This document shows, piece by piece, positions 5,366-58,582 of a DNA stretch of 64,000 nucleotides (its first letter is position 1; every line of letters begins with the position of its first letter). Made by a program: the position numbers and the translations under genes. Origin of the DNA: Cloeon dipterum (taxonomy: Eukaryota > Arthropoda > Insecta > Ephemeroptera > Baetidae); contig NC_088786.1 of assembly GCF_949628265.1 (NCBI RefSeq), positions 39,639,681-39,703,680 of the forward strand. Reading direction: 5' to 3'. The notes under the pieces were generated by a model, which did no database searches, had not been told where the DNA came from, and saw only the letters and a program-made list of their open reading frames with translations.

Positions 5366-7065
5366 TTATACATCAATGTGCTTCTTGACAATATGAGCAC
5401 ACAAACCTTTCCTACTCCTATAAACTTTCGGGCACTTGTCACAACGGAAATTAATACCCTTCGGACAATAATGCTTTGCAAGAAGTCCTGAGCAATTTAA
5501 CTTGCACTTGCAGTGGCGGCAAGTCTTTGCTGTCCGGTGTCTAAACATGTTTTGACGGGTAATCTCCTGGGCACATTCTGCGCAACGAACGTACTCGTGC
5601 GATCTGTACTTGTGACTATTGAGAATTGGTTGAGAGCCAAACAATTTGTTGCAATCTGCACACTTGAAAGTCTTTGGAAAATGTAAGCATTGAATGTGCC
5701 ATAACATGTAGTTCTTATTAAATGTAGAATAGTCGCAATGGTCGCAGCGTAACTTAGTTTTGAGAAGAGAGTGAAATTTTCTCACGTGGCGATTCAACTT
5801 CCAACCCATGTTGAACAATTCTCCACACTCTTTGCAACTATGGGGGTTTTGTTTGCAGCGGTTCTTATGCAGTTGATACAAACCAGAGCACTTGAATTCG
5901 AGTTTGCATTTGGAGCAAGCCAATGGTCTTCTGTGGCGTGCCTTGTATACGACAGCCACGTCCTGGCCACAAGATTTGCACTTGTCGAATGTATGATATT
6001 GTTTGTAGTGATAATTAACCAGGTATTTTGAGCCGAAACTGGCGTCGCAACTGTCGCATTTGAACGTCTGTGGCATGTGCTTCGACTGTTGGTGTATCAC
6101 CATCGCGTTCTTGATCGTTGTGAAATACTCGCAATGCTCGCACTGGAAAAGATCTTGAATTTTGCCACGTTTGTGAAATGAATTGACGTGGAGAATCATT
6201 TCAGGCTTGGATTTGAAATTCTCGTTGTAGCCTAAAGGCACCAGTTCTCGATGCTTGCGTCTCATGTGCTGCTTCCACGATGAACTTGAGAAATACAATT
6301 TGTCGGTTAAACAAAATTTGCAACGAATTTTGTCACTTTTCTCGTGAAAATCGTGCATGTGCTTCTCTTTTTCCTCCTCGGTATGAAAGAATTTCGTGCA
6401 GCCCCAAATTCTGCATTTGATGGCTTCTTTGTGCTTCAATTTGACGTGATATGTCAGATAGTCGTATCTCTTGCCGCAGTAAAGACAAACTCCACTGACG
6501 TATTTCTTTTTCTTAGGGATTTCCTTCTCGTACTCGGCAAGATCAACCTCTTCCAACTGCACCCAACACTGTTCAACTTCTCCAACTGTAAAATTTAGAA
6601 AAAGGAAATCATCTTGACGAATATATTATCAAAATTTCCCAAGTACCTGAATAATTCTCGCGAAGCACCTTAGCGTTTTCTTCCAAATCAAGGTTTTTCG
6701 GCCACCAAGCAACACCATCGTCTCCAGACTCATCCCCAAACCTAGAACACGCGTCAGAATTAAAATATTAAATTAAAATTCATGAAAATAACTCACTCAG
6801 CCTGCCAAATGCAAAAATAGCAGATCAAAGCGTCTTCTTCAACCACTTCCGGCAGGTTTTCGTCTTCTTCCGTCAGGTTCATGACCTTCATGGCCCATTT
6901 CCTCAGCTTGAACCTGTCCACCTGCGACGCGAGGACGTGGCCGTCCGACGTCGGACACTCGCACAGTCTGCACAGCGGCTTTTGAATAGCAGGTTTTGCT
7001 TCTCCGACTCTTGGTGGCTGCATCTCTCGACTCCTCAAGCTTCTGGTTCTGCAATGTCTCTCCAT
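5366..7065 (-). CDS. ZNF-1: ZAD-like/C2H2 zinc-finger protein
   Basis: Exons 7065-6797, 6741-6647 and 6585-5366 give 527 residues. This entry defines the family layout. Exons 1-2 encode a ZAD-like domain (C32, C35, C82, C85); ZADs dimerise insect zinc-finger proteins. Exon 3 opens with an acidic linker (VGEVEQCWVQLEE), then fingers F1-F14 from about residue 155. F1-F6, F9-F11 and F14 are C2H2, F2 and F4 with a CX4C knuckle. F7-F8 and F12-F13 are cysteine-rich pairs with Cys in place of the last His. F5-F9 and F10-F14 are two copies of one module. A nuclear DNA-binding regulator is likely; targets are unknown. Here F4 has lost both cysteines (VPLGYNENF where paralogues read VAC...GC..YF). Helices: F9 NMGWKLNRH, F10 NKNYMLWH. 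The start is the first ATG in exon 1, in GGAGACATGG. Confidence 0.88.
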
Positions 7066-7214
7066 GTCTCCACCCAAAATGTTTTCACCGTTAAATTTCT
7101 ATGCCCAGTTCCTGATTTGGTCGGCTCGGAAAAAGCAAGCGAATTTTTTCCTCGTGGAACTAGATTCTTGCATATCGTCCTGCGAAGCCATGTGTGTTTA
7201 CAAGCGCAGAACCA

Positions 7215-7490
7215 ACACCTCCGCCCCCGTTCGCAGTGGTGTGTGTGACAAGGAGAATGAAATTTTTGAGCAATTATATTTTTTCCCACGTTTTTAAGGT
7301 TTTTAATATTTGTCTGTTTACTTTTTTTTATTTAATTTTCTGTTTAAATTTGATAGTTTTTTAAAATAGCCTTAGATTTCGACTTAAAAACTTTAAAATT
7401 CGAGTAATGCTATAAACTCCATATCTTACTTCTATCATGCTTTTGGAGGCAACCAATCAGCGTTCAATCAATGCTCTTTGACTGGCGCAA
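7215..7490 (-). promoter_or_regulatory. ZNF-1 promoter (GC-box motif plus CCAAT module)
   Basis: On the + strand the motif CCGCCCCCGTTCGCAGTGG followed by TGTGTG.GACAAGGAGAA sits at 7219-7257, 150 bp upstream of the ATG; it contains a GC box (GGGGGCGG on the gene strand). About 380 bp upstream (7447-7490) is a CCAAT-type module, AACCAATCAGCGTTCA then ACTGGCGC; the second CCAAT is mutated here. Both blocks recur ahead of most genes in the array, which is the main evidence for function. Confidence 0.6.
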
Positions 7491-7916
7491 TCTCCAGATA
7501 TTTTAAGAATTATCTCACTATTTGTGGTTCTTTTTACGCAACGGGACATAATGAATAATGACTGCTTCAACCGGAGTGTGTGTCCAGTTCGGTTTGTGAA
7601 AATTTAACACGGGAGTATAGGAATCTCCGGTTTTTGAGCCTAAAATTATATATTAACTTCTGACCAGCATGAACCAATACAGATCACGAATCAGACTTTA
7701 GGATGCTGGTGTTAAATAATATCCATAAGATAAAAAGAAAAGGATATATTTTATTGTTATTTGAATAATGAATAATACATTTGTAGATACAAAATAATTA
7801 ATATTCAGATATTTTACACAAAACACCTATACCAAAATTCAAACTGTAGCAACATAACCGCGTAAAAGGGACTATTTTCTGGTAAATTTTTACAATTCAA
7901 TACGTGAAAATTTTAA
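7491..7916. other. Spacer ZNF-1/ZNF-2
   Basis: Holds the array-wide GGGACATAATGAA motif (7540-7560), a right-end piece of R1 (7650-7700) and the ZNF-2 3' UTR with an AATAAA on the gene strand (7750-7755). No gene is seen. Confidence 0.5.
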
Positions 7917-9651
7917 TTAGACATCAATGTGCTTCGTGACAATATGAGAATACAAACATAACTTTTTGCTATAAAATTTCGGGCACTTGTCACAATAGAA
8001 ATTATTGCTCTGCAGATTCAGACAGCCATGCTTTTCCAAAAGTCCTTGGCACTTGAATTTGCACTCGCAGTGGCGGCAAGTCTTGATGATCAGGTGATTA
8101 AACATGTTTTGACGGATTATCTCCTGGGCACATTCAGCGCAATGAACGTACTCGTGCATCTTGTACTTGTGATTATTGAGAATTGATTCAGAACCAAACA
8201 ATCTGTTGCAATCCGCACACTTAATCGTCTTTGGAAGATGATTGCATTGCATGTGCCACAACATGTGGCTCTTAGTAATTGTAGAATAGTCGCAATGGTC
8301 GCAGCGTAACTTAGTTATGCGAAGAGTGTGAAATTTTTTCACGTGGCGATACAATTTCCCACGCTCGTTGAACGATTCTCCACACTCCTTGCAACTGTAG
8401 GGGTTTTGTTTGCAGCTCTTCCAATGCGATTGATACAAACCCGAGCACGTGAATTTGAGTTTGCATTTGGAGCAAGCCGATGGCCTTCTGTGGGTTGGCA
8501 TGTACCCGACAGAAACGTCCTGGCCACAAGATTTGCACACGTCGAAAGTATGGAATTTTTTGAAGTGCCTATTCACCAACTGTTTTGAGCCGAATTTGGC
8601 GTCGCAACTGTCGCATTTGAACATCTTGGGCTTGTGCTTCGACAGTTGGTGATTTCTCATCACGAATTTAGAGTTGGAGAAAAATTCGCATTGCTTGCAC
8701 TCGAAAAGATTTGTGTCTTGTTTGTGCCACGAGTCGACATGGAGAAGCATTTCAGACTTGGATTTGAAATACTCAATGCAGCCTAAACGCGTGCACGCCA
8801 CCAGTTCTGGATGCATGCGTCTCATGTGCCGCTTCCACAATGTTCTTGAGGAGTACAATTTGCTGTCTTTACAAAATTTGCAACTAATTTTGCTGCTTTC
8901 GTTTGGTTTCTCACGTTTTTTATGACAATCATGCTGCATGTGCTGCTCTTTTTCCTCCTCGGTGTGAAAGTAAGTCGTGCAGCCCCGAATTCCGCATTTG
9001 ATGGCTTCTTTGTGCATAGCTTTGACGTGACCCATCAGTCGTTCGAATCTGTTGCCGCAGTAAAGACAAACTCCACTGACGCATTTCTTTTTCTTAGGGA
9101 TTTCCTTTTCGTACTCGGCAAGATCAACCTCTTCCAACTGCACCCAGCACTGTTCTACTTCTCCAACTGTAAAATTTACGAGAATAGAAATAGCCATGAA
9201 TTTTTTTTTAAATGCGCAAGTATCATACCTGAATAATTCTCCCGCAACACCCTAGCGTTTTCTTCCAAATCAAGGTTTTCCGGCCACCAAGCCACAGCCT
9301 CGTCTCCGGACTCATCCCCAAACCTACAAAAACAAGTCAAAATTAATAAACTGCAACTTTAAAAGTTCGGGAAATAACATACTCTGCCTGCCAGATGCAA
9401 AAATAGCAGATCAAAGCGTCTTCTTCAACCACTTCCGGCAGGTTTTCGTCTTCTTCCGTCAGGTTCATGACCTCCATGGCCCATTTCCTCAGCTTGAACC
9501 TGTCCACCTGCGACGCGAGGACGTGGCCGTCCGACGTCGGACACTCGCACAGTCTGCACAGCGGCTTTTGAATGGCAGGTTTCGCTTCTCCGACTCTTGG
9601 CGGCTGCATCTCTCGACTCCTCAAGCTTCTGGTTCTGCAATGTCTCTCCAT
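7917..9651 (-). CDS. ZNF-2: ZAD-like/C2H2 zinc-finger protein
   Basis: Exons 9651-9383, 9323-9229 and 9166-7917 give 537 residues; the first donor is GTATGT. Zinc ligands of all fourteen fingers appear present, making this one of the best-preserved members. Compared with ZNF-1 it has a longer linker after F2 (HDCHKKREKPNESSK) and a three-residue extension before F14. Its ZAD exon is almost identical to that of ZNF-1, including the longer N-terminus (RTRSLRSREMQPPRVGE). Its fingers differ at helix positions: F9 NERGKLYRH, F10 TKSHMLWH. The 3' flank is of the R1 type, without an Atg1 fragment. Confidence 0.88.
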
Positions 9652-9809
9652 GTCTCCACCCAAAAATGGTTTTCACCGTTAAATTCCTATGCCCAGTTCC
9701 TGATTGGGTCGCCTCGACAATAGTAAAGTAAACAAGCAAATTTTTTACGCGGAACTTGCTGCTCGCATATCGTCCGGCGAAGCCAAGCCATGTGTGTTTA
9801 CAAGCAGAA

Positions 9810-10085
9810 CCAACACCTCCGCCCCCGTTCGCAGTGGTGTGTGCGACAAGGAGAATGAAATTTTTGAGCAATTATAGTTTTTTCTACGTTTTTATGGTTT
9901 TAATATCTGTTTGTTTACTTTATTTTAATAAATTGCTTTTTAAATTTGCTAATGATTTAAAATAGCTTTAGATTTTGACTTAAAAACCTCAAAATTCAAG
10001 TAATGCTGTTATTTCCTTATCTTACCTCTATCATTCTTTTGGATGCATCCAATCAGCGTTCAACGCGCTTTGACTGGCGCGTTCT
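9810..10085 (-). promoter_or_regulatory. ZNF-2 promoter
   Basis: The GC-box motif lies at 9813-9850, 159 bp before the ATG. The CCAAT module is at 10045-10080 (CATCCAATCAGCGTTCAACG, then GACTGGCGC); as in ZNF-1 the second CCAAT has decayed. Confidence 0.55.
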
Positions 10086-10206
10086 CCAGATATTTGAATT
10101 GTAAGAATTTTCTTATTAATTCTAGTTCTTTTCGTTCTTTTTTCGCGTCGGGACATAATGAATGCGCTTTAATGTAACAGCGGGAAAATGATGGTACATC
10201 AACATG

Positions 10207-10296
10207 GTGTACCATGTAGGACACACCGGTTCTCGTTTACTTCTAATTAAATCACCGAAGTTAAGCAACGATGAGACACGAGTCAAACAGTACGTA
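10207..10296 (+). pseudogene. 5S rRNA-derived sequence
   Basis: ACCATGT..GACACACCGGTTCTCG, an 11-bp insertion, ATCACCGAAGTTAAGCAACG and then AG..ACGAGTCA..CAGTACGT follow the order of the 5' two thirds of arthropod 5S rRNA. The A-box of the internal RNA polymerase III promoter (AAGTTAAGCAACG) is intact; the 3' part of 5S is missing. It interrupts the array-wide GGTACATCAACAT motif. It is either a 5S pseudogene or the head of a 5S-derived SINE whose body is 10297-10490; no poly(A) tail or target duplication was identified. Confidence 0.7.
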
Positions 10297-10967: not shown

Positions 10968-12673
10968 TTATACATCAATGTGCTTCTTGACAATATGACC
11001 GTACAAATAATTCTTTTTCCTATAAATTTTCTGACACTTGTCACAAATGAAATTATTACCCTGCGGACAAAAATGCTTTTCAAGAAGTCCTGAGCACTTT
11101 AACTTGCACTTGCAGTGGCGGCAAGACTTGATGGTCCGATGGTAAAACATCTTTTGACGGCTCATCTCCTGGGTACATTCTGCGCAACGAACGTATTTGT
11201 GACGCTTGTTTTTGTGATCCTTGAGAAAATATTCAGAGCCAAACAGTAACTTGCACTCTCCACACTTAATCGTTTTTGGAATATGTAAGCATTGGATGTG
11301 CCCTTCCAAGCTTCTCTTTACAAATGTGGAATAGTCGCAATGGTCGCAGCGTAAATTCGGAGTTTTGGGGTGAAATTTTTTCACGTGGCGATACAACTTC
11401 CAACTGAAGGTGAACGATTCTCCGCACCATTCGCAACTATAGGGAGTTTGTTTGCAGCTCTTCTTGTGCAATTGATACAAACCCAAGCAATTAAAACTGA
11501 GTTTGCATTTGGAACAAACGGATGGCCTTCTGTGGACTGCCTTGTACCTGAGAGAAACGTCCTGGCAACAAGATTTGCACTTGTCGAATGTATGACAATT
11601 TTTGAAGTGTAAATTAAGCAGGCATTTAGAGCCTAAACTGGCGTCGCAGCTGTCGCAGTTAAACGTCTTTAGCATGTGCTTCGACTCTTGGTGTAACCTC
11701 AACCTGGTTTTCTTTTTGGTAAAATAATCGCAATGATTACAGTGGAAAAGATCTTGTTTTGTGCCTTGTTTGTGAAACGAGTTTATATGGTGAATCATTG
11801 CAGGCTTGGATTTGAAATACTCTTGGCAGCCTTTATGCTTGCACGATAACAATTCTGGATGCATGCGTCTCATGTGCAGCCTCCACGAAGTGCTTGAGGA
11901 AAGCAATTTCCAATTTTCACAAAATTTGCAACGAATTTTGCTGCTTTCGTATGGTTTGTCACGTTTCTCGTGAAAATCCTGCTGCATATGCTGCTCTTTT
12001 TCCTCCTCGGTGTGAAAGTAAGTCATGCAGCCCCGAATTCCGCATTTGATGGCTTCTTTGTGCTTCTTCTTGACGTGATCCGCCAGCTGGTTGTATGTCT
12101 TGCCGCAGTAAAAACAAACTCCACTGCAGTATTTCCTCTTTTTAGGGATTTCCTTATCGTATTTGGCCAGATCAATCTCTTCCAACTGCACCCAACACTG
12201 TTCAACGTCTCCAACTGTAAAATTTAGAAAAAGGAAATCATCTTGACGAATATATTATCAAAAATTCACAAGTACCTGAATAATTCTCCCGCAGCACCTG
12301 TGCGTTTTCTTCTAAATCAAAGTTTTTCGGCCACCAAGCCACAGCTTCGTCTCCAGACTCGTCCCCAAACCTACAGGAACACGCGTCAAAATCAAAATAA
12401 AATATTTAGGGCTCATGAAAAAACTCACTCCGCCTGCCAGATGCAAAAGTAGCAGATCAATGCGTCTTCTTCGACCACGTCCGGCAGGTTTTCGTCTTCT
12501 TCCATCAGGTTCATGATTTTCATGGCCCATTTCCTCAGCTTGAACCTGTCCACCTGCGACGCGAGGACGTGGCCGTCCGACGTCGGACACTCGCACAGTC
12601 TGCACAGCGGCTTTTGAATCCGAGTTTTTCCTACTTGACTCCTTAAGCTCCTTGATTGTCTCTCCATCTCCAT
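10968..12673 (-). CDS. ZNF-3: ZAD-like/C2H2 zinc-finger protein
   Basis: Exons 12673-12429, 12370-12276 and 12214-10968 give 528 residues. It belongs to the subgroup with the shorter N-terminus (QVGKTRIQKPLCRLC) shared by ZNF-3 and ZNF-5 to ZNF-12. Translation can begin at the first of two ATGs two codons apart (MEMERQ). All fingers keep their ligands. F7 has an extra cysteine (CKSCCQDV). F10 is the only copy with Leu at the helix core (VKRSLEGH); F9 is TFSWKLYRH. The AATAAA overlaps the stop codon. The 3' flank has neither R1 nor an Atg1 fragment. Confidence 0.88.
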
Positions 12674-13080: not shown

Positions 13081-13144
13081 TTTAACTCCAGATATCGTCA
13101 ATTTTAACTATTTAGAATTATCTCATTATTTGTAGTTCTTTTTA

Positions 13145-14072: not shown

Positions 14073-15781
14073 TTACACGTCAAAGTGCTTCCTGACAATA
14101 TGAGAATGCAAACTGGTCCTGTTCCTGTAAATTTTTGACTACTTGTCACAATATTAATTATTACCCTGCGGACAGTCATGCTTTGCAACAAGTCCTGAGC
14201 AATTTAACGTGCACTTGCACTGGCGGCAAGTCTTTACTGTCCGTAGTTTAAACATGTGTTGACGGCTCATCTTCTGCGCACATTCTACGCAACGGACGTA
14301 TTTGTGATCCTTGAGAAATGATTCAGAGGCAAACAAATGGTTGCACTCTCCACACTTAATCGTCTTTGGAAAATGCCTGTATTGCATGTGCCCCCCCATG
14401 TATGTCTTGTTAAATGAAGAATAGTCGCAATGGTCGCAGCGGAAATTAGGGATTTTGCTGTGAAATTTTCTCACGTGGTGATTTAACTTCCAACACACGT
14501 TGAACGATTCTCCACACTCCTTGCAACTATAGGGGGCTTGTTTACAGCTCTTCCGATGCAGTTGATACAAACCCGAGCACTTGAATTTGAGTTTGCATTT
14601 GGTGCAAAACGATAGCCTTCTGTGGTCAGCCTTGTACCCGAGAGAAACGTCCTGGCCACAAGATTTGCACACGTCAAATGTATGAAATTTTTTGTAGTGA
14701 AAATTAACAAGGAATTTTGAGCCGAAACTGGCGTCGCAACTGTCGCATTTGAACATCTTTGGGAAGTGCTTTGCCTGTTGATGTAGCACCATCACGTTCA
14801 TCCTGGTTGTGAAATAATCGCAATGCTCGCACTCAAAAAGATATTGATTTATGCCTTTTTTGTGAAACGAGTTGACATGGAGAATCATTTCAGACTTGGA
14901 TTTGAAAAACTCTTTGCAGCCTAAACGAGAGCACGCCACCAGTTCTGGATGCATGCGTCTAATGTGCCGCTTCCACAATGTTCTTGAGGAATACAATTTG
15001 CTGTCTTTACAAAATTTGCAACGAATTTTGCTGCTTTCCCCTGGTTTGCCACCTTTCTCGTGAAAATCATGCTGCATGTGATGCTCTTTTTCCTCCACGG
15101 TGTGAAAGTAAGTCGTGCAGCCCCAAATTCCGCATTTGATGGCTTCTTTGTGCATGTATTTGACGTGCTTCATCAGATGGTTGTATCTGTTGCCGCAGTA
15201 AAGACACACCTCACTGCCGCATTTCCTCTTTTTAGGGATTTTCTTTTCGTATTCGGCCAGATCAATCTCCTCCAACTGCACCCAACACTGTTCAACTTCT
15301 CCAACTGAAAAATTTTATCAATGGAAATTCCTTTTTATTATTTTAAAAAAATTCTTAAGTACCTGAATAATTCTCCCGAAGAACCTTAGCGTTTTCTTCC
15401 AAATCAAGGTTTTTCGGCCACCAAGCCACAGCCTCGTCTCCAGACTCGTCCCCAAACCTAAAATGCGAGTCAAAATTAACGAACTGCATTTTTATCATCT
15501 TGAAAAACATACTCTGCTTGCCAGATGCAAAAGTAGCAGATCAAAGCGTCTTTTTCGACAACCTCCGGCAGGTTTTCGTCTTCTTCCGTCAGGTTCATGA
15601 TCCTCATGGCCCATTTCCTCAGCTTGAACCTGTCCACGTGCGACGCGAGGACGTGGCCGTCCGACGTCGGACACTCGCACACTCTGCACAGCGGCTTTTG
15701 AATGGCAGGTTTCGCTTCTCCGACTCTTTGCGGCTGCATCTCTCGACTCCTTAAGCTTCTGGTTCTGGAATGTTTCTCCAT
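14073..15781 (-). CDS. ZNF-4: ZAD-like/C2H2 zinc-finger protein, last finger lost
   Basis: Exons 15781-15513, 15457-15363 and 15304-14154 give 504 residues. A TAA at 14154-14156, right after the PQGNN that follows F13, removes F14; a second nonsense codon follows five codons on. Beyond it the old finger stays in frame to its former stop at 14073. Other decay: five residues are deleted between F11 and F12 (DHKYVRC), removing the second His of F11, and the F12 His is replaced by Leu (FKLRTVKTC). The ZAD is intact apart from small changes (CRVC knuckle, ASHVDRF). Helices: F9 NVCWKLNHH, F10 NKTYMGGH. A start at 15781 fits paralogues; the frame is open further upstream. Confidence 0.85.
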
Positions 15782-16844: not shown

Positions 16845-18544
16845 TTATTTACCAATGTGCTTGCTGACAAAATGGCAATACAAATTTCTCTTATCCAAAT
16901 AAAAATTCGGGCACATGTCACAATAGTAATTTTTACTCTGCAGACACACATGGTTTTTAAGAAGACCACGACACTTGAATTTGCACTTGCAGCGGCGGCA
17001 ACTCTTGACAGTTCGATGGAAACGCATGTAAGGACGGGTTATCTGCTGGGCACATTCTGCGCAACGAACATATTCGTGCGATCTGTCCTTGTGAATCTTG
17101 AGAATGGATTCTGAGCCAAACAATTTGCTGCACTCTCCACACTTAATCATCTTTGGCAAATGTCTGTATTGCATATGATTCGCCATGTGGCTCTTTTCAA
17201 ATGTAAAAAAATCACAATGGTCGCAGCGGAAATTAGGGGTTTTGCTGTGAACTTTTCTCACGTGGCAATTCAGCTTCCAACACACGTTGAACGATTCTTC
17301 ACACTCCTTGCAACAATAGGGGGCTGGTTTGCAGCTCTTCCTGTGCAGTTGATACAAACCAGAGCAAGTGAATTTGAGTTTGCATTTGGAGCAAGCCAAT
17401 GACCTTAAGTGGTCAGCCTTATGCCCGTGAGAAACGTCCTGGCCACAAGATTTGCACTTGTCGAATCTATGAATTTGATTGTTGTGAAAATTAACCAGGT
17501 ATTTTGAGCCGAATTTGGCGTCGCAAAGGTCGCATTGGAAGACCTTTGGCATGTGCTTCGCCTCTTCGTGTTTTCTCAAAACACCCTTAAATGTGGTGAA
17601 ATACTCGCAATGCTTGCACAGGAAAAGATCTTGATTTTTGCCTTGTTTGTGATAAGAGTTGATATGGAGAATCATTTCAGACTTGGATTTGAAGTACTCT
17701 TTGCAGCCGTAATGCGTGCAAGCAAACGGAAGATCAGGGTGGTTGTGTTTCATGTGCCATCTCCACGATTTCAATGAGGAATACAATTTGCCGATTTCAC
17801 AAAAATTGCAAGAAAAATTCTTCCTTTCGCGTGGTTGTTCACGTTTCTCGTGTAAATCCTGCTGCATGTGCTGCTCTTTTTCTTCCTTGGTGCGAAAGTA
17901 AGTCGAGCAGCCCCAAATTCCGCATTTGATGGCTTCTTTGTGCATCAGTTTGACGTGGTCCGTCAGTTTGTTGTAACTGTTGCCGCAGTAGAGACAAACT
18001 CCACTGCCGTATTTCCTCTTTTTAGGGATTTCCTTTCCGTACTCGGCCGGATCAATTTCTTCCAACTGCACCCAACACTGCTCAATTTCTCCAACTGTAA
18101 AATTTAGAAAAAGGAAATAATCTTGACGAATATATTATCAAAAATTCACAAGTACCTGAATAATACTCGCGAAGAACCTTTGCGTTTCCTTCCAAATCAA
18201 GGTTTTTCGGCCACCAAGCCACAGTCTCGTCTCCAGACTCGTCCCCAAACCTACAAAACACGCGTCAAAATCAAAATAAATTTTATAGATTGTGACAAAA
18301 CTCACTCTGCTTGCCAGATGCAAAAATAGCAGATCAATGCGTCTTCTTCGACCACGTCCGGCAGGTTTTCGTCTTCTTCCGTCAGTTTCATGACCTCCAT
18401 GGCCCATTTCCTCAGCTTGAACCTGTCCACCTGCGACGCGAGGACGTGGCCGTCCGACGTCGGACACTCGCACAGTCTGCACAGCGGCTTTTGAATCGGA
18501 GTTTTTCCTACTTGACTCCTTAAGCTCCTTGAACGTCTCTCCAT
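16845..18544 (-). CDS. ZNF-5: ZAD-like/C2H2 zinc-finger protein
   Basis: Exons 18544-18306, 18250-18156 and 18094-16845 give 527 residues. All fourteen fingers are recognisable. The linker between F2 and F3 is distinct (EQPRERKNFS), F3 begins CNFC, and F9 begins CCKECEES. The protein ends H-I-G-K where most paralogues end HIDV or HIDK. F9 helix NVCWKLNCH has Cys at the position before the first His; F10 is EKSHMANH. AATAAA lies within 15 bases of the stop. Confidence 0.88.
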
Positions 18545-42555: not shown

Positions 42556-42567
42556 GGCAAATCAGGT

Positions 42568-42989: not shown

Positions 42990-44694
42990 TTATGCATCAA
43001 TGTGCGTCCTGACAAAATGATTATACAAACTTGTCTTTTTCCTATAAATTTTCGTGCACTTGTCACAATGAAAATAATCCCCCTGCGGACAGACATGCTT
43101 TGCGAGAAGTCCTGAGCACTTAAATTTGCACTCGCAGTGGCGGCAAGTCTTCATGGTCCGATGTTTAAACATCTTTTGATGACTCATCTCCTGGGCACAT
43201 TCTGCGCAACCAACGTATTCGTGTCGCATGTATTTGTGTTTCTTGAGAAATGATTTAGAGGCGAACAGTTGGTTGCAGTCTCCACACTTAATCGTCTTTG
43301 GAAAATAATTGCGTTGCATGTGCTCCATCATAGGATATTTATCAAATGTGGAAAAGTCGCAATGGTCGCAGTGAAAATTCGGGGTTTTGGTGTGGCACTT
43401 TCTCACGTGGCGATTCAACTTCCAACGCACGTTGAACGATTCTCCACACTCTTTGCAACTATAGGAGGCTTCTTTGCAGCTCTTCCTATGCAGTTGAAAG
43501 AAACCCAAGCACTTGAATTTGAGTTTGCATTTAGAGCAAATCGATGTCCTTCTGTGGCGTGCCTTGATTCCGTAAGCAACGTCCTGGCCACAATATTCGC
43601 ACTTGTCGAATTTATGACATTGTTTGTAGTGAAAATTAACCAGGCATTTTGAGCCGAATTTGGAGTCGCAACTGTCGCATTTGAACTTCTTTGGCAAGTG
43701 CGTCGATTGTAGGTGTAGCCTCAAATTGGGCTTCTCAGTGGTAAAATACTCGCAATGCTCGCACTGCAAAAGATTTCGTTTTATGCCTTTTTTGTGCAAC
43801 GAGTTGACATGGAGAATCATTTCAGACTTGGATTTGAAGTACTCAATGCAACCTACACGCGAGCACGCCACTAGTTCTGGATGAATGCGTCTCATGTGCT
43901 GCCTCCACAATGTTCTTGAGGAATATAATTTTCCATTTTCACAAAAATTGCAACGAAAATTCTTGCTTTCGCATGGTATTTCACGTTTGTCGTGTGCATC
44001 CTGCTGCATGTGCTGCTCTTTTTCCTCCTCGGTGTGAAAGTAAGTCGTGCATCCCCGAATTATGCATTTGATGGCTTCTTTGTGCTTCTTCTTGACGTGA
44101 TCCGCCAGCTGGTTGTAAAAACAAACTCCACTGCAGTATTTCCTCTTATTAGGGATTTCCTTTTCGTATTTGGCCAGATCAATCTCCTCCAATTGCACCC
44201 AACACTGTTCTACTTCTCCAACTGTAAAATTTGGAGAATAGAAATTACGCCGTTGATTATTTTAATTAAAAATTCCCTACCTGAATAATTCTCCCGAAGA
44301 ACCTTAGCATTTTCTTCCAAATCAAGGTTTTTCGGCCACCAAGCCACAGCTTCGTCTCCAGACTCGTCCCCAAACCTACAAAAACACGAGTCAAAATCAA
44401 AATAAATTTTATAGATAGGGAAATAACATACTCCGCCTGCCAGATGCAAAAATAGCAGATCAAAGCGCCTTCTTCGACCACGTCCGGCAGGTTTTCGTCT
44501 TCATCCGTCAGGTTCATGACCTTCATGGCCCATTTCCTCAGCTTGAACCTGTCCACCTGCGACGCGAGGAAGTGACCGTCCGACGTCGGACACTCGCACA
44601 GTCTGCACAGCGCCTTTTGAATGGTAGGTTTTGATTCTCCGACTCTTGGTGGCTGCATGTCTTGACTCCTTAAGCTTCTGGAATTACGTTCCAT
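42990..44694 (-). CDS. ZNF-13: ZAD-like/C2H2 zinc-finger protein, F1 and F10 damaged
   Basis: Exons 44694-44432, 44375-44281 and 44221-42990 give 529 residues. Compared with ZNF-3, a 15-bp in-frame deletion between GTA repeats removes CGKTY from F1 (VCFYNQLADHV), taking one zinc cysteine. In F10 the last His is Tyr (HMQRNYFPK). The ZAD exon has the longer N-terminus (RSQDMQPPRVGESKPTIQK) and DGHFLASQ. Intron 1 is open in the exon-1 frame, so an unspliced product would read on. F9 NVRWKLNRH; ends THIDA. It is followed by the best-kept Atg1 fragment. Confidence 0.87.
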
Positions 44695-46576: not shown

Positions 46577-47053
46577 TCACCAGAGTATTTCATCATCCAA
46601 ATCTAAAACATACAAAAAACGCCGCGTTGAAATATCATCACACAAATTCAGGATATTTTGCAAACAAACCTGGAATCTTTTGCGCTCATCGAGTTCCAGG
46701 ATGACATCTGCGAGAAGAGCAATGACAATCTCGATATTGTCATAATCTATTCCAGAATACGAACTAATGAAGCATGTATTCCATAGATTTTTGAGGATTC
46801 TCAAAACCAAGCCATAGTAGTTCACGGAGAGGACTCCTTCATAGAGCTCGTGATCAAGGATGACGATCTTAGCCAATAACAGAGCTGCAGCGGCTAGCAG
46901 TGATGGACGCACACCAAACAACCTGTCGTCGCTCATCAGGCTCAACTCAAGCAGGTACTTGGCGGTCATGTAATCAATGACAAGAGCCTCGGCAACAGTT
47001 ACAAAGAGCCAAAGGTACTCAAACGAAATCGGCTGTCCAATCCTACAGCCAGC
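46577..47053 (-). pseudogene. Cyclin fragment (second cyclin fold)
   Basis: An open frame on the minus strand reads GCRIGQPISFEYL then MTAKYLLELSLMSDDRLFG, RPSLLAAAALLLAKI and, further on, a helical C-terminal tail. This matches the start and body of the C-terminal cyclin domain of A/B-type cyclins (the FLRR.., AKYLLELSL and PS.IAAAAL motifs). The N-terminal cyclin box with its CDK-binding helix is not found in the ~1.5 kb upstream, and no good acceptor is seen. It is best read as a captured gene piece whose frame is still open; a real gene with distant exons cannot be excluded. Confidence 0.65.
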
Positions 47054-48388
47054 CTTTAAGAGCAGTAAAATAAAACACGTCCTTTCCCAGTGGTGTCATG
47101 CGACTAACTATAACTATATTGTCAATGTTGCCAACTTACAGTCATACAATTATTTAGTAATCAGGCTTGCCAAGTACCTTACAATTTTTTTGGGAAAAAT
47201 CAATATAATAGGATAATTTATTCAAGAATTATCTCTGGTTTTTTTTTTCATTTTAATAATTCAAATGATTTCCAGAGGCAAACTCGGACTCGGACTCTCT
47301 CTTGTGTCTATCAGAGACTGCGTATAATACAAAGAAACTTTTATTTTATTTTCAAGGACAGATTCATTATGGTTACCATGTGCGAAAATTTCAAATTTAT
47401 CTGATAATTAAAAACGTACGTAAAATGATAATTGAGCGAAGTCAAGTTGCGCGCCAACAGGAAGCGGCAGCGTGCCACGCCCCCCTCTGTTGGCCAGCAG
47501 CGCTGGGTGCTGACCAATCAGATTGTTTTTGCCTATTTCCTCCGAACTTTACAGTGCTAGACCACTGATTTGGAATCTTCTCATCGAGATCTATTGGACA
47601 GCCAGAGACTTTTTTGGGGGGAAATGCGGAATTTCAGTAAAAATCGGGATTGCAAGATAACGTTGAGAATTCTCCATTGATCTATCTCTATATATTTTCT
47701 CCAATAATACGTTTTTATATGTGGAATTTAAACTATGTATTTGTTACGATTTTACAAGCAATAATATTTTAGTTTTTAAACGAAAGTCTTTGTTGCGTCT
47801 ATTGTTAAAAGTTCAAATAAGCTACTTTGTTTATAAAATTTAGTTTATTATTTTAACGTAAAAATAAAATGGCCAAAAAATATTTTGAAATCCAAATTTT
47901 CATCACAATTCGGCGCAAATTTTTTGGTTTAGTTTTCAGTGTTAATTTTATTTTAAATCTAATTTTTACAAACAAACATCTGATTTACACTGCTCTCGTG
48001 GATCATATTATTTAAAATTAAATGCAATTATTTCGGTTTATTAGTAAAAAGTCTTAAATAAGAAAAGCTTTTAAAAAACCGCGTAGCATGATGAAAATGA
48101 ACAAATAAATCGGCATAATTTTCTAGAATCTTCAAAACGCTTCTCAAAATTAAAATTGGATTTTTTCAAATATTTAATTTAATAAAATAAATGTCTAATA
48201 TATTTCATAAAATTACACAGTTCTTTCACAGATAGGTGGCTATATCAACAAATCCCATAAATTAATTCAATTCTTTCATGATTTTGTGCATCTTTACGAT
48301 CGTTGCGAAATGAGGAAAAATAATTCCAAAATTTACTCTATAGGGAGAGAAATTTTTGATTAACAAGAATTTTAGCTCATATTCTCTT

Positions 48389-48390
<2 letters not shown>
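47054..48390. other. AT-rich intergenic sequence
   Basis: No gene. 47520-47600 contains an inverted relative of the inner part of the 25784-26207 element (TTTACAGTGCTAGACC ... GAGATCTATTGGACAG). Confidence 0.4.

Positions 48391-48446
<56 letters not shown>
48391..48446. repeat. (TA)n microsatellite
   Basis: About 28 TA units. The corresponding site in the right copy was the target of the palindromic element. Confidence 0.95.
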
Positions 48447-48452
<6 letters not shown>

Positions 48453-48591
48453 CATTGATTTGAATATATTTTTAGATTCCAAAGAGTTAAATTTCAGAAG
48501 AATTTTTTACACTAAACAAAACAAAATATACTGAAGTTTTTTTCAATTTAACACGCTTCAATTTTTTAGAATAACGCTTTTTTCGTTTTAT

Positions 48592-50320
48592 TTATTGATT
48601 AATGTGCATCCTGACAAAATGGTGATAAAAACCTTTCCTTTTCCTAAACATTTTCGGGCACTTGTCACAATAGAAAAAATTACCCTGCGGACAGACATGC
48701 TTTTCAAGAAGTCCTGAGCACTTGAATTTGCACTTGCAGTGGCGGCAAGTCTTGATGGACCGATGTTCATACATGGCTCGACGGCTCATCTCGTTATCAC
48801 ATTCTGCGCAACGAACGTATTTGTGCGATCTGTACTTGTGAATCTTGAGAATGGATTCTGAGCCAAACAATTTGTTGCAATCCGCACACTTAATCGCCTT
48901 TGGGAGATGCATGTATTGCATGTGCCGCAGCATGTATCTCTTTTCAAAAGTAGAAAAGTCGCAATGGTCGCAGCGGAAATTAGGGGTTTTGCTGTGAAAT
49001 TTTCTCACGTGGTGATTCAACTTCAAACCCATGTTGAACGATTCTCCACACTCTTTGCAAATATAGGGGTTTTGTTTGCAGCTCTTCCGATGCAGTTGAT
49101 ACAAACCAGAGCACTCGAATTTGATTTTGCATTTGGAGCAAACAGATGGCTTTCTGTGCTGTTTCTTGAGTCCGAGAGCCACGTCCAGGCCACAAGATTT
49201 GCACTTGTTGAACGTATGATATTGTTTGTTGTGAATAGTAACCAGGAATTTTGAGCCGAATTTGGAGTCGCAACTGTCGCATTTGAACATCTTTGGGAAG
49301 TGCTTCGCCTGTTGGTGTTTACTCAAAATGAGCTTCTCAGTGGTAAAATACTCGCAATGCTCGCACTGCAAAAGATTTCGTTTTATGCCTTTTTTGTGCA
49401 ACGAGTTGACATGGAGAATCATTTCAGACTTGGATTTGAAATACTCTTTGCAGCCGTAATGCGCGCACGCCACCAGTTCTGGATGAATGCGTCTCATGTG
49501 CTGCTTCCACAATGTTCTTGAGGAATATAATTTTCCATTTTCACAAAAATTGCAACGAAAATTCTTGCTTTCGTATGGTTTTTCACGTTTGTCGTGTAAA
49601 TCTTGCTGCATGTGCAGCTCTTTTTCCTCCACGGTGTGAAAGTAAGTCATGCAGCCCCGAATTCCGCATTTGATGGCTTCTTTGTGCATTCGTTTGACGT
49701 GTTGTGTCAGCTGGTCGTATCTCTTTCCACAGTAAAGACACACTTTACTGCCACATTTCCTCTTTTTAGGGATTTCCTTTTCGTATTTGGCCAGATCAAT
49801 CTCCTCCAACTGCACCCAGCACTGTTCTACTTCTCCAACTGTAAAATGTGGAGAATAAATATGACACCGTTGATTATTTTAATAAAAATTCCCTACCTGA
49901 ATAATTCTCGCGAAGCACCTTTGCGTTTTCTTCTAAATCAAGGTTTTTCGGCCACCAAGCCACAGCCTCGTCTCCAGACTCATCCCCAAACCTACAAAAA
50001 CACGCGTCAAAATCAAAATAAATTGTATAGATAGTGAAATAAACATACTCTGCCTGCCAGATGCAAAAATAGCAGATCAAAGCGTCTTCTTCGACCACGT
50101 CCGGCAGGTTTTCGTCTTCTTCCGTCAGGTTCATGACCTGCATGGCCCATTTCCTCAGCTTGAACCTGTCCACCTGCGACGCGAGGACGTGGCCGTCCGA
50201 CGTCGGACACTCGCACAGTCTGCACAGTGGCTTTTGAATGGCAGGTTTTGCTTCTCCGACTCTTGGCAGCTGCGGAGGCTGCATCTCTCGTATCCTTCTG
50301 GTTCTGCAATGTCTCTCCAT
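48592..50320 (-). CDS. ZNF-14: ZAD-like/C2H2 zinc-finger protein
   Basis: Exons 50320-50049, 49991-49897 and 49838-48592 give 537 residues. All ligands are present, so it shows the module repeat best: first cysteines of F5-F9 at about residues 281, 309, 335, 356 and 383, and of F10-F14 at 412, 440, 466, 487 and 513, a shift of 130-131 each. Finger exon differs from ZNF-15 by one residue (CEYF here, CKYF there). The ZAD exon is peculiar (RTRRIREMQPPQLPRVGE) and unlike ZNF-15. F9 NMGLKLNHH, F10 EKRYMLRH. Ends HINQ with AATAAA overlapping the stop. Confidence 0.9.
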
Positions 50321-50476
50321 GTCTCTACCGAAAAAGATTTTTAGCGTTATTTTTCATTGCCCAGTTAGTTCCTGATTGGGTCGGCAATTATTAACAAGCA
50401 AATGATTTCAGGCGGAACGCGGAATTCTTGCTGCATGTGCATGCACTGTGAAGTCATGTGTTTACTGTTTACAAAC

Positions 50477-51093: not shown

Positions 51094-51660
51094 TAAGGAT
51101 AGTAGAGACTAGGAGGCGACATTCGGTATCAGAGCTGATACCCTACTATATGCACGCCAGCTTTATTTGCACGGTGTTAGTATGTTGCTAAGCAACGCGA
51201 CACGCGACTGATTCCTAGTAAACAATCAGTCTAACAATGGGTCGCAATCTCGAAAATAGCAGGAAAGCCCCAAAATCTCGCGTTCGGGACGGATACAGAC
51301 CTTCGGACAGTCGGATGGATCGCCAATAACAGCAAAAGTCTTCAGGTTAGTCTGTTTGTGTTTGCACACCTGGTGCACACTAGACGAGAAGCTTGTTTAG
51401 CTCACTTACTATTATGACTCGCGGCTGACACTTTTGCTGTTATTGGCGATCCATCCGACTGTCCGACTGTCCCGAACGCGAGATTTTGGGGCTTTCCTGC
51501 TATTTTCGAGATTGCGACCCATTGTTAGACTGATTGTTTACTAGGAATCAGTCGCGTTGCTTAGCAACATACTAACACCGTGCAAATAAAGCTGGCGTGC
51601 ATATAGTGGGGTATCAGCTCTGATACCGAATGTCGCCTCCTATAGTCTCTACTCTCCTTA
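51094..51660. mobile_element. 567-bp foldback MITE with 8-bp target duplication (hAT-like)
   Basis: Arms 51094-51339 and 51429-51660 are near-perfect reverse complements around an 89-bp loop. Termini TAAGGATAGTAGAGACT and the complement of AGTCTCTACTCTCCTTA are flanked by a direct GTGAAGAT repeat (51086-51093 and 51661-51668). Eight-base duplications are typical of hAT (and P) transposons. No transposase is encoded. Confidence 0.87.
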
Positions 51661-51668
51661 GTGAAGAT

Positions 51669-53172: not shown

Positions 53173-53290
53173 TTAGCCAATAACAGAGCTGCAGCGGCTA
53201 GCAGTGATGGACGCACCCAAACAACCTGTCGTCGCTCATCAGGCTCAACTCAAGCAGGTACTTGGCGGTCATATATGTAATCAATGACAA
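53173..53290 (-). pseudogene. Truncated cyclin fragment, copy 2
   Basis: Right-hand copy of the cyclin piece, starting at the duplication edge, so the C-terminal half is absent. A 2-bp loss (GACGCACCCAAAC against GACGCACACCAAAC) also breaks the frame. Confidence 0.7.
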
Positions 53291-54700
53291 GAGCCTCGGC
53301 AACAGTTACAAAGAGCCAAAGGTACTCAAACGAAATCGGCTGTCCAATCCTACAGCCAGCCTTTAAGAGCAGTGAAATAAAACACGTCCTTTCCCAGTGG
53401 TGTCATGCGATTAAGTATATTGTCAATGTTGCCAACTTACAGTCATACAATTATTTAGTAATCAGGCTTGCCAAGTACCTTACAATTTTTTTGGGAAAAA
53501 TCAATATAATAAGATAATTTATTCAAGAATTATCTCTGGTTTTTTTTTCATTTTAATAATTTAAATGATTTCCAGAGGCAAACTCGGACTCGGACTCTCT
53601 CTTGTGTCTATCAGAGACTGCGTATAATACAAAGAAACTTTTATTTTATTTTCAAGGACAGATTCATTATGGTTACCATGTGCGAAAATTTCCAAAATTT
53701 CAAATTTATCTGATAATTAAAAACGTACGTAAAATGATAATTGAGCGAAGTCAAGTTGCGCGCCAACAGGAAGCGGCAGCGTGCCACGCCCCCCTCTGTT
53801 GGCCAGCAGCGCTGGGTGCTGACCAATCAGATTGTTTTTGCCAATTTTCTCCGAAATTTACAGTGCTAGACCACTGATTTGGAATCTTCTCATCCAGATC
53901 TATCGGACAGCCAGACTTTTTTTGGGGGAAATGTGGAATTTCAGTAAAAATCGCGATTGCAAGATAACGTTGAGAATTCTCCATTTATCTATCTCTATAT
54001 TTTCTCCAATAATACGTTTTTATATGTGGAATTTAAACTATGTATTTGTTACGATTTTACAAGCAATAATATTTTAGTTTTTAAACGAAAGTCTTTTTGT
54101 TGCGTCTATTGTTAAAAGTTCAAATAAGCTACTTTGTTTATAAAATTTAGTTTATTATTTTAACGTAAAAATAAAATGGCCAAAAAATATTTTGAAATCC
54201 AAATTTTCATCACAATTCGGCGCAAATTTTTTGGTTTAGTTTTCAGTGTTAATTTTATTTTAAATCTAATTTTTACAAACAAACATCTGATTTACACTGC
54301 TCTCGTGGATCATATTATTTAAAATTAAATGCAATTATTTCGGTTTATTAGTAAAGTCTTAAATAAGAAAAGCTTTTAAAAAACCGCGTAGCATGATGAA
54401 AATGAACAAATAAATCGGCATAATTTTCTAGAATCTTCAAAACGCTTCTCAAAATTAAAATTGGATTTTTTCAAATATTTAATTTAATAAAATAAATGTC
54501 TAATATATTTCATAAAATTACACAGTTCTTTCACAGATAGGTGGCTATATCAACAAATCCCATAAATTAATTCAATTCTTTCATGATTTTGTGCATCTTT
54601 ACGATCGTTGCGAAATGAGGAAAAATAATTCCAAAATTTACTCTATAGGGAGAGAAATTTTTGATTAACAAGAATTTTAGCTCATATTCTCTTAAAATAT

Positions 54701-56639
54701 ATGGAAGGATCCATATTAAGTGAACCCCTGTTTGGCAAGTGGTCTTCAGATCTTGATGAAATTCGGTGGAGATGATGCCCTAGGGAACCTAAGTTAAACC
54801 ATAAAATATTAGGTCAAAATTCCAAAAATTGTTCATTTTACAGGGGTTCAAAATTTGAGATTTTTGAAAAAGGTGATGTTTTCGGCGATTTGTAACTTGG
54901 ACTCTGTTTATAGTAAACACAAAAATTAGGTATCCAAAATATTTTACGTTTGATGCCAAACAACTTTCCCACGATGACCAACTTCGTAGGTCAAAGGTCA
55001 AGGTCACTAAATTGGGGTCAAACTTTTCAAAAAAATCCCACATACCCAAGTACATAAAATTTGGGAAATTCAAAATAGCCAAAATGTGCCTCATATCCAT
55101 GGTAACAACATATAAAAAATTGGCGATACGTTTTTTTTTTCGTTTTCGAGATATTTTGAATTGAGTGTTTAAAATCGATGTTTTCCGAGTCTTCTGATCA
55201 TCAATAAAAACACGTTTTCCGCTTAATCTCAGCTTCTATGGGTCCGATTTACAAAAACCGCACACCGTTTGATACGTAATGACCTCCCCTAGGTAATGCA
55301 AGTGATCATAAGGGTGCCCACCCCCTTCAAACCCTTAACCACCCCCTGGAAATCCGAAAAATTAATTTTTTCATATTTTTAACCTCTATCTCGACAAATT
55401 AAGCGTGACACCAATCAAGTATGTCGCAAAATAGTTACAATAATAAATATTATTATTTTCTTTGTAGAGGAAACCTTAAAAAAAATAAAATTGCTAATAT
55501 GAAGATATTAAAAAAATTATTTAGGTTTATTTTAAAATAGCGTTATATTTGGTTTTAGTTTATTTAAAATAACTTGATTAATCTTTATTTATTAATATTT
55601 TAAAAATAAATTAATAAATGCAACCAATTCAAATATCTGAAATTGCACACAATATGCACCAAATTATGATGGTTCTACATATTGTATTGGTTGCATTTAT
55701 TTATAATAATAAAAGAACAGTGTGAAATGTTAAATTTATTTTTAAAATATTAATAAATAAAGATTAATCAAGTTATTTTAAATAAACTAAAACCAAATAT
55801 AATGCTATTTTAAAATAAACCTAAATAATTTTTTTAATATCTTCATATTAGCAACTTTATTTTTTTTGAGGTTTCCTCTACAAAGAAAATAATAATATTT
55901 ATTATTGTAACTATTTTGCGACATACTTGATTGGTGTCACGCTTAATTTGTCGAGATAGAGGTTAAAAATATGAAAAAATTAATTTTTCGGATTTCCAGG
56001 GGGTGGTTAAGGGTTTGAAGGGGGTGGGCACCCTTATGATCACTTGCATTACCTAGGGGAGGTCATTACGTATCAAACGGTGTGCGGTTTTTGTAAATCG
56101 GACCCATAGAAGCTGAGATTAAGCGGAAAACGTGTTTTTATTGATGATCAGAAGACTCGGAAAACATCGATTTTAAACACTCAATTCAAAATATCTCGAA
56201 AACGAAAAAAAAACGTATCGCCAATTTTTTATATGTTGTTACCATGGATATGAGGCACATTTTGGCTATTTTGAATTTCCCAAATTTTATGTACTTGGGT
56301 ATGTGGGATTTTTTTGAAAAGTTTGACCCCAATTTAGTGACCTTGACCTTTGACCTACGAAGTTGGTCATCGTGGGAAAGTTGTTTGGCATCAAACGTAA
56401 AATATTTTGGATACCTAATTTTTGTGTTTACTATAAACAGAGTCCAAGTTACAAATCGCCGAAAACATCACCTTTTTCAAAAATCTCAAATTTTGAACCC
56501 CTGTAAAATGAACAATTTTTGGAATTTTGACCTAATATTTTATGGTTTAACTTAGGTTCCCTAGGGCATCATCTCCACCGAATTTCATCAAGATCTGAAG
56601 ACCACTTGCCAAACAGGGGTTCACTTAATATGGATCCTT

Positions 56640-56643
<4 letters not shown>
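54701..56643. mobile_element. 1.94-kb near-perfect palindromic element
   Basis: Left arm 54701-55628 and right arm 55686-56643 are reverse complements with few differences (a ~28-bp insertion in the right arm near the centre) around a 57-bp spacer. It starts ATGGAAGGATCCATATTAAG and ends with the complement. It lies in a TA run that is uninterrupted at the paralogous site (48391-48446), so insertion into TA, as for Tc1/mariner-type elements, is likely. The family was not recognised; identical 103-codon ORFs in the two arms merely mirror each other. Confidence 0.85.

Positions 56644-56711
<68 letters not shown>
56642..56711. repeat. (TA)n microsatellite
   Basis: About 35 TA units, the right remnant of the run split by the palindromic element. 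Confidence 0.95.
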
Positions 56712-56718
<7 letters not shown>

Positions 56719-56857
56719 CATTGATTTGAATATATTTTTAGATTCCAAAGAGTTAAATTTCAGAAGAATTTTTTACACTAAACAAAACAAAATATACTGA
56801 AGTTTTTTTCAATTTAACACGCTTCAATTTTTTAGAATAACGCTTTTTTCGTTTTAT

Positions 56858-58582
56858 TTATTGATTAATGTGCATCCTGACAAAATGGTGATAAAAACCT
56901 TTCCTTTTCCTAAACATTTTCGGGCACTTGTCACAATAGAAAAAATTACCCTGCGGACAGACATGCTTTTCAAGAAGTCCTGAGCACTTGAATTTGCACT
57001 TGCAGTGGCGGCAAGTCTTGATGGACCGATGTTCATACATGGCTCGACGGCTCATCTCGTTATCACATTCTGCGCAACGAACGTATTTGTGCGATCTGTA
57101 CTTGTGAATCTTGAGAATGGATTCTGAGCCAAACAATTTGTTGCAATCCGCACACTTAATCGCCTTTGGGAGATGCATGTATTGCATGTGCCGCAGCATG
57201 TATCTCTTTTCAAAAGTAGAAAAGTCGCAATGGTCGCAGCGGAAATTAGGGGTTTTGCTGTGAAATTTTCTCACGTGGTGATTCAACTTCAAACCCATGT
57301 TGAACGATTCTCCACACTCTTTGCAAATATAGGGGTTTTGTTTGCAGCTCTTCCGATGCAGTTGATACAAACCAGAGCACTCGAATTTGATTTTGCATTT
57401 GGAGCAAACAGATGGCTTTCTGTGCTGTTTCTTGAGTCCGAGAGCCACGTCCAGGCCACAAGATTTGCACTTGTTGAACGTATGATATTGTTTGTTGTGA
57501 ATAGTAACCAGGAATTTTGAGCCGAATTTGGAGTCGCAACTGTCGCATTTGAACATCTTTGGGAAGTGCTTCGCCTGTTGGTGTTTACTCAAAATGAGCT
57601 TCTCAGTGGTAAAATACTTGCAATGCTCGCACTGCAAAAGATTTCGTTTTATGCCTTTTTTGTGCAACGAGTTGACATGGAGAATCATTTCAGACTTGGA
57701 TTTGAAATACTCTTTGCAGCCGTAATGCGCGCACGCCACCAGTTCTGGATGAATGCGTCTCATGTGCTGCTTCCACAATGTTCTTGAGGAATATAATTTT
57801 CCATTTTCACAAAAATTGCAACGAAAATTCTTGCTTTCGTATGGTTTTTCACGTTTGTCGTGTAAATCTTGCTGCATGTGCAGCTCTTTTTCCTCCACGG
57901 TGTGAAAGTAAGTCATGCAGCCCCGAATTCCGCATTTGATGGCTTCTTTGTGCATTCGTTTGACGTGTTGTGTCAGCTGGTCGTATCTCTTTCCACAGTA
58001 AAGACACACTTTACTGCCACATTTCCTCTTTTTAGGGATTTCCTTTTCGTATTTGGCCAGATCAATCTCCTCCAACTGCACCCAGCACTGTTCTACTTCT
58101 CCAACTGTAAAATGTGGAGAATAAATATGACACCGTTGATTATTTTAATAAAAATTCCCTACCTGAATAATTCTCCCGAAGAACCTTAGCGTTTTCTTCC
58201 AAATCAAGGTTTTTCGGCCACCAAGCAACAGCCTCGTCTCCAGACTCATCCCCAAACCTACAAAAACACGCGTCAAAATCCAAATCGATTTTATAGATGG
58301 TGAAAAAACTCACTCTGCCTGCCAGATGCAAAAATAGCAGATCAAAGCGTCTTCTTCGACCACGTCCGGCAGGTTTTCGTCTTCTTCCGTCAGGTTCATG
58401 ACCTTCATGGCCCATTTCCTCAGCTTGAACCTGTCCACCTGCGACGCGAGGACGTGGCCGTCCGACGTCGGACACTCGCACAGTCTGCACAGCGCCTTTT
58501 GAATGGCAGGTTTCGCTTCTCCGACTCTTGGCGGCTGCATCTCTCGACTCCTCAAGCTTCTGGTTCTGCAATGTCTCTCCAT
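56858..58582 (-). CDS. ZNF-15: ZAD-like/C2H2 zinc-finger protein, start codon region disturbed
   Basis: Exons 58582-58314, 58257-58163 and 58104-56858 give 536 residues. The finger exon equals ZNF-14 except for one residue in F5, while exons 1 and 2 come from a different lineage (RTRSLRSREMQPPRVGE, closest to ZNF-1 and ZNF-2). A 7-bp duplication (GACATGG) at the start creates an upstream ATG at 58589 in another frame. The ZAD frame is reached only from the second ATG at 58582, so it needs leaky scanning. The upstream ATG opens a long frame that runs through exon 1 without resemblance to a domain. Confidence 0.86.

Follow-up and report, generated by a model that had tools for sequence, protein, structure and literature searches.

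A stretch of 64,000 nucleotides of the Cloeon dipterum genome (contig NC_088786.1, positions 39,639,681–39,703,680; hereafter the window) carries fifteen zinc-finger genes at 5366–58582. These genes form a single tandem cluster within a large C2H2 family that has several such clusters, and their promoter and finger blocks have uncoupled histories, with mosaics, which is a new observation here. We consider it probable that partner-swapping recombination has re-paired promoters and fingers within the cluster, diversifying what may be a repertoire of chromatin-binding proteins. Large zinc-finger families evolve fast, and the acquisition of a promoter and effector domain by a new finger array is rarely visible. 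In this array the history of each copy's promoter can be told apart from that of its fingers, and module swapping can therefore be tested directly.

All fifteen genes lie on the minus strand in scripted gene models, with starts 2.6–8.3 kb apart (Table 1). With splice sites placed by pattern, the intron phases are 2 then 1 and exon 2 is exactly 95 bp in 15/15 genes, while intron 1 measures 55–59 bp and intron 2 56–64 bp. A degenerate exon-1 motif matches 15 times in the window (shuffle mean 0.07), and a 30-bp promoter block, TTCTCCTTGTCGCACACACCACTGCGAACG, is found with 0–4 mismatches 192–218 bp before the ATG of every gene (reversed control 0). Eleven of the fifteen proteins are full length, at 525–538 amino acids; the early ends of the other four, and a finger in gene 13 that has lost a Cys (Table 1), do not figure in the initial annotation. 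Mean nucleotide identity, calculated without the gene 14–15 pair, is 95.8% in the exon-1 core compared with 67.7% in intron 1 and 81–84% in exon 3. The initial annotation had described genes on one strand with common intron phases, a conserved proximal promoter block and a near-invariant N-terminal domain with diverging fingers in one tandem C2H2 family, all of which was borne out. Its exon 2 of exactly 95 bp holds within the window but is not universal outside it, being 98 bp in 1 of 17 further listed copies and 98, 98 and 104 bp in three diverged copies (two more give 70 and 122 bp, where the splice sites appear misplaced). By a strict pattern each of the fifteen proteins has 9–12 fingers, and about 14 modules are counted by eye once C2HC and short ones are included. 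Pfam zf-C2H2_4 matches both of the exon-3 frames scanned (30.1 and 34.2 bits, cut-off 27); the C2H2 matches in the full gene 5 protein all fall below the cut-off. Rfam gave no matches at gathering thresholds across the whole window.

Relatives of these genes lie on several of the 10 contigs of the 190 Mb genome, three of which are here labelled C1 (containing the window), C2 and C4. Exact matches number 396 for the exon-3 entry motif (backward control 0) and 151 for the exon-1 motif LICYFC-WQ (control 0), and a wider motif reaches 550 when up to one mismatch is allowed (control 2). These figures refer to motifs and exons rather than to intact genes. Among 572 candidates, 150 exon-1 matches were scored, comprising 96 close matches (70–100% identity; on C1, C4 and one on C2), 52 diverged matches (46–60%; on C4 and C2) and two short partial ones. 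The diverged copies L021–L024 and L026 keep the same two introns (five copies by script, the rest by eye). Diverged sister clusters of the same architecture lie at C2 1.68–4.85 Mb and C4 28.8–33.8 Mb, with at least dozens of motif or exon matches. One C4 copy (L019, 5575–7857) has a stop-to-stop frame of 760 amino acids in which, by eye, the late-finger block is repeated; finger number therefore varies within the family. No intronless copies were present among the matches listed by a spliced-query search, and 16 pattern matches in viral contigs included no relatives by tblastn. Size alone is not unprecedented, as some arthropods carry hundreds if not thousands of zinc-finger (ZNF) genes (PMC10547256). 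In dipteran flies, ZNF number is uncorrelated with retroelement number (PMC10547256). The main text of the paper on the C. dipterum genome (an assembly of 180 Mb) contains neither 'zinc finger' nor 'C2H2'. A pattern of six TTAGG repeats had no match in the present genome, in a search that may skip simple repeats; TTAGG is reported as not found in Ephemeroptera.

The uncoupling of promoters from fingers is seen in pairwise distances among 24 C1 copies, 15 from the window and the others from elsewhere on the contig. The promoter block is internally coherent (segments up1 and up2, r 0.43, P 0.001), as is the finger block (segments ex3a and ex3b, r 0.31, P 0.004), whose coherence extends downstream of exon 3, and promoter and finger distances are uncorrelated (up–ex3, r −0.05, P 0.67). 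Fourteen window copies give the same uncoupled pattern, and in them exon 2 tends to side with the fingers; gene 11 (W11) was left out of this set and of the contact-position analysis below, and partly of the synonymous-divergence and neighbour tests.

Several genes look like mosaics. Gene 9 has a promoter like those of genes 5 and 3 and fingers like those of gene 7, with discriminating sites divided 27:127 in the promoter versus 173:35 in the fingers. The distal promoter of gene 14 resembles gene 8 and its remainder gene 15 (55:114 versus 204:2), and gene 7 shows a similar reversal (50:100 versus 174:20). All eight mosaic triplets gave P below 0.05 (weakest 0.013) in Fisher tests that treat linked sites as independent, the triplets having been chosen after a nearest-neighbour table and several sharing genes. 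Relative to the first Cys codon, the switch lies between about −250 and +250 in gene 9 and between about −250 and −100 in gene 14, and the likeness of gene 10 to gene 8 is lost only in exon 2 or intron 2. These zones include or adjoin exon 1. The array might in principle be an assembly artefact of repeated haplotypes, and genes 14 and 15 do differ by only 0.1% over the first 1100 bp of exon 3. However, the nearest exon-3 relatives of the other 13 genes differ by 5.4–20.6%, the distal promoters of genes 14 and 15 differ from one another, and related copies are found on several contigs, so that an assembly artefact is highly improbable. In the open-access literature, represented mainly by titles and the starts of abstracts, we found no description of a domain like the N-terminal one discussed below or of promoter–finger re-pairing in such an array.

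Pieces of the left-flanking gene recur between the array genes (Table 1); by eye it looks Atg1/ULK-like, and a kinase domain was matched in the left flank (L038), the frame in the window itself having no Pfam match. A 2-kb block containing gene 15 (56658–58683) is 97.3% identical to 48392–50418 at gene 14, and a sixteenth promoter block, lying some 200 bp further upstream than the one that precedes gene 15, is perhaps the remnant of a promoter duplication. Sequence in the spacer downstream of gene k is similar to the promoter region of gene k−1 (r 0.49, P 0.003), as contiguity predicts, and equally to that of gene k+1 (r 0.48, P 0.004), so that more than one duplication unit would fit. We propose that the cluster grew by tandem duplication beside the Atg1-like gene, and that unequal crossing-over and/or gene conversion changed partners during its growth. 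The zone of partner change would begin some 250 bp ahead of the first Cys codon and reach as far as exon 2, and promoter and finger blocks would have been re-paired while exon 1 stayed nearly uniform. The products would be nuclear proteins that bind different DNA targets, present one common N-terminal surface for a shared partner or for dimerisation, and are expressed from exchangeable promoters. By analogy with ZAD-ZNF and KRAB-ZNF proteins, they may have a role in chromatin or repeat control (PMC7655104).

Exon 1 stands apart in its synonymous sites. Its synonymous divergence (pS) is 0.096 (0.059–0.139) compared with 0.263 in exon 2 and 0.258 in exon 3, nearly threefold lower (means exclude the gene 14–15 pair). 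The lowest pS among 337 well-covered exon-3 blocks of exon-1 length is 0.170, or 0.102 among 483 blocks when poorly covered codons are admitted. Between C1 copies and six C4 copies, synonymous distance (dS) is 0.172 in exon 1, 0.462 in exon 2 and 0.513 in exon 3, in a comparison that leaves out L028, L029 and copies with a short exon 3. Protein conservation does not by itself account for the near-invariance of exon 1, whose synonymous sites are also unusually conserved. GC content at third codon positions (GC3) is 0.79 in exon 1 versus 0.49–0.54 in the rest. Recombination with GC-biased conversion would fit the low exon-1 dS, the high GC3 and the mosaics. A bolder reading, possible though less likely than not, is that exon 1 serves as an evolutionary joint. 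Recombination would keep dozens of copies near-identical there, and this identity would allow promoters, which set the time and place of expression, to be exchanged relative to finger arrays, which set the DNA target, while the protein stays intact. The outcome would be a combinatorial set of proteins around an undescribed cysteine domain. An overlapping +1 frame in exon 1 was considered as a general cause of the conservation and rejected, as by eye it is open in many copies but has early stops in others and in a diverged relative.

Changes in the fingers are concentrated in the recognition helices. Helix positions are numbered by the usual scheme. Over 23 of 32 copies (those with a short exon 3 left out), nonsynonymous divergence (pN) is 0.323 at 44 contact positions compared with 0.163 across the remainder of exon 3 (P 0.0002 by permutation). 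Helix position 6 is the most variable (pN 0.431), while the first zinc-binding His is near-fixed (pN 0.006). The recognition helices thus vary on a kept scaffold, with positive selection not proven.

A number of results weigh against re-pairing by recombination with diversification of the fingers. With the truncated C2 copy L028 wrongly counted as a C1 copy, up–ex3b gives r 0.44–0.48, and ex1–ex3b r 0.64 among 10 copies outside the window. The close likeness of the copies within exon 1 prevents any breakpoint from being placed there. Across the 15 genes, exon 3 of gene k shows no significant relation to the promoters of its neighbours (k−1, r 0.08; k+1, r 0.14) and correlates with the k+2 promoter (r 0.39, P 0.02); when gene 11 and either 14 or 15 are dropped, k−1 (0.25–0.48) and k+1 (0.40–0.47) both become significant. 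Variation at contact positions is not significantly higher than at the exposed positions 1 and 5 of the helix (14 window copies, P 0.14; 23 copies, P 0.11), and the contact-position pN/pS of 1.11 is no proof of positive selection. Genes 4, 6, 11 and 12 end prematurely (Table 1), which may mean that the array is decaying in part. Lastly, codon conservation between families is 0.640 in exon 1, compared with 0.512 expected from regional codon usage (exon 3, 0.505 versus 0.464), an excess in exon 1 that would not be expected from conversion alone.

This last result keeps in play the main rival to conversion, namely that exon-1 synonymous sites are conserved by a function of the DNA or RNA, such as splicing, a promoter-proximal element or a target of the proteins themselves. 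The excess is seen between families that are about 56% identical in protein, and conservation, high throughout exon 1, is low in the intron next to it. Exon-1 distances, however, follow neither the promoter nor the finger history (though exon-1 differences are few), and a GC3 of 0.79 is also expected from GC-biased conversion; we judge such a function rather unlikely as the explanation. The early-ending genes (4/15), together with partial copies and short frames of exon 3 in other parts of the clusters, would also suit a mostly neutral birth and death of tandem copies in which few copies matter. Against this, 11/15 genes keep long open frames at an exon-3 dS of about 0.32, dN/dS (nonsynonymous to synonymous distance, ratio of means) is 0.11 in exon 2 and 0.59 in exon 3, and the zinc-ligand His is nearly invariant, and we regard neutral turnover as improbable.

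The N-terminal domain is encoded by all three exons: LCRLCECPTSDGH...LICYFCIWQAE in exon 1, with 46 residues between the Cys pairs, ...DEAVAWWPKNLDLEENAKVLRENY in exon 2, and VGEVEQCWVQLEE at the start of exon 3. C7, C10, C57, C60 and a WW pair are invariant in 10/10 diverse members, and QCW(V/A)(Q/P)LE is present in all nine of those in which exon 3 was found. The initial annotation called this domain a ZAD. Pfam zf-AD (PF07776) matched none of 10 diverse N-domains and none of three sequences from the window, of which one was a full protein and two were N-terminal parts, in scans asked at E ≤ 10 with filters that drop most matches above about 0.1, and this is the outcome that the annotation had itself named as refuting. 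The same model matches 21 other stretches of the genome at E ≤ 0.01. The conserved WW / QCWVQLE module likewise has no Pfam match, and the region as a whole goes unmatched although its signature occurs about 400–550 times in the genome. KRAB was not found in Pfam scans of the exon-3 frames, the window sequences or the 10 diverse N-domains.

The array could nevertheless have arisen as an ordinary expansion, within this lineage, of classical ZAD-ZNF genes with a ZAD that drifted beyond the Pfam model, which is possible if not favoured. The domain sits ahead of C2H2 fingers, and its two CxxC pairs are 46 or 41 residues apart in the family, where a classical ZAD found elsewhere in the genome has 42. 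Comparison by HHalign with five classical ZADs gave 65% at full length and 72% when cut to ZAD length, the latter with a score that none of 200 Cys-preserving shuffles reached; on realignment both Cys pairs are matched, with a core of 13 columns, mainly the first Cys knuckle. The strand and helix order of a low-confidence model of exon 1 appears to fit a ZAD. Set against these likenesses, the zf-AD model is missed in every diverse member, and a profile search of PDB with the N-domain returned nothing at E ≤ 10, though the classical ZAD from this genome recovers grauzone (1pzw) at 8.7e-5. In HHalign, the region beyond the first knuckle reaches 1.7% when taken by itself, and Foldseek found no match in PDB, albeit with a weak exon-1 model (predicted confidence, pLDDT, 58). 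An in-frame read-through of gene 14 (exon 1, intron 1 and exon 2) was also folded, and at pLDDT 39 that model was not used. By these comparisons the domain is ZAD-like in layout, with a remote, borderline link to ZADs and membership unproven. The initial annotation also envisaged many heterodimers, which can only be conjectured because ZADs preferentially homodimerise according to a review (PMC7828040). On the strand of the array, about 18 kb from the window edge, a classical ZAD is matched at C1:39621972–39622178 (L012, L020), and C2H2 frames lie next to it.

In its general plan the family recalls the insect ZAD-ZNF proteins (PF07776 with a C2H2 array), which have an N-terminal Cys4 domain preceding C2H2 fingers, lineage-specific amplification (PMC7655104) and tandem clusters with common intron positions (PMC9810180). 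It differs in having no zf-AD profile match, in its extra WW / QCWVQLE module, and in its several hundred motif copies compared with about one hundred Drosophila proteins (PMC7828040). Tetrapod KRAB-ZNF genes likewise place an N-terminal effector domain ahead of a C-terminal C2H2 array; they too have amplified in particular lineages, turn over rapidly and show selection on the parts that bind DNA (PMC7655104), but the array family has no KRAB domain in the Pfam scans. Also comparable are the Cucoid/M1BP/Oddjob clusters of Drosophila, ZAD-ZNF complexes of 4–5 genes ascribed to tandem duplication, for which gene conversion is named as a possible cause of incongruence between tree and cluster (PMC9810180). 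Those clusters are small and conversion in them is a suggestion, whereas block mosaics are measured here.

Table 1. Positions of the fifteen array genes and of associated features in the window.
Feature	Position	Strand	Exons	Remarks
Gene 1	5366–7065	−	6797–7065, 6647–6741, 5366–6585	527 amino acids (aa)
Gene 2	7917–9651	−	9383–9651, 9229–9323, 7917–9166	537 aa
Gene 3	10968–12673	−	12429–12673, 12276–12370, 10968–12214	528 aa
Gene 4	14154–15781	−	15513–15781, 15363–15457, 14154–15304	Early stop, 504 aa
Gene 5	16845–18544	−	18306–18544, 18156–18250, 16845–18094	527 aa
Gene 6	19959–21609	−	21365–21609, 21215–21309, 19959–21154	Early end, 511 aa
Gene 7	23579–25281	−	25043–25281, 24890–24984, 23579–24825	526 aa
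Gene 8	27508–29241	−	29003–29241, 28850–28944, 27508–28790	538 aa
Gene 9	30678–32375	−	32137–32375, 31986–32080, 30678–31921	525 aa; mosaic
Gene 10	33802–35500	−	35262–35500, 35111–35205, 33802–35048	526 aa
Gene 11	36750–38273	−	38035–38273, 37882–37976, 36750–37825	Early end, 469 aa
Gene 12	39410–41032	−	40785–41032, 40634–40728, 39410–40569	Early stop, 500 aa
Gene 13	42990–44694	−	44432–44694, 44281–44375, 42990–44221	529 aa; first finger without second Cys (by eye)
Gene 14	48592–50320	−	50049–50320, 49897–49991, 48592–49838	537 aa; mosaic
Gene 15	56858–58582	−	58314–58582, 58163–58257, 56858–58104	536 aa
Promoter block of gene 15	58768–58797	−		Equivalent block in 15/15 genes
Outlying second promoter block upstream of gene 15	58998–59027	−		4 mismatches
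Left-flanking gene stretch	764–989	+		Fragments recur in 6/14 intergenic spacers; taken as duplication debris

The region around genes 14 and 15 has several further features. A block at 46869–48397 recurs at 53173–54702 with 97.3% identity, and an open frame on the minus strand at 46577–47095 has a cyclin C-terminal domain (Pfam 1.6e-8). Between the two genes, 54697–56647 contains a near-perfect inverted repeat with arms of 481 and 443 nucleotides, 99/100% complementary, around a 120-nucleotide centre. Further inverted repeats, with arms of 92, 89 and 42 nucleotides that are 95–100% complementary, lie at 51110–51642 in the same spacer.

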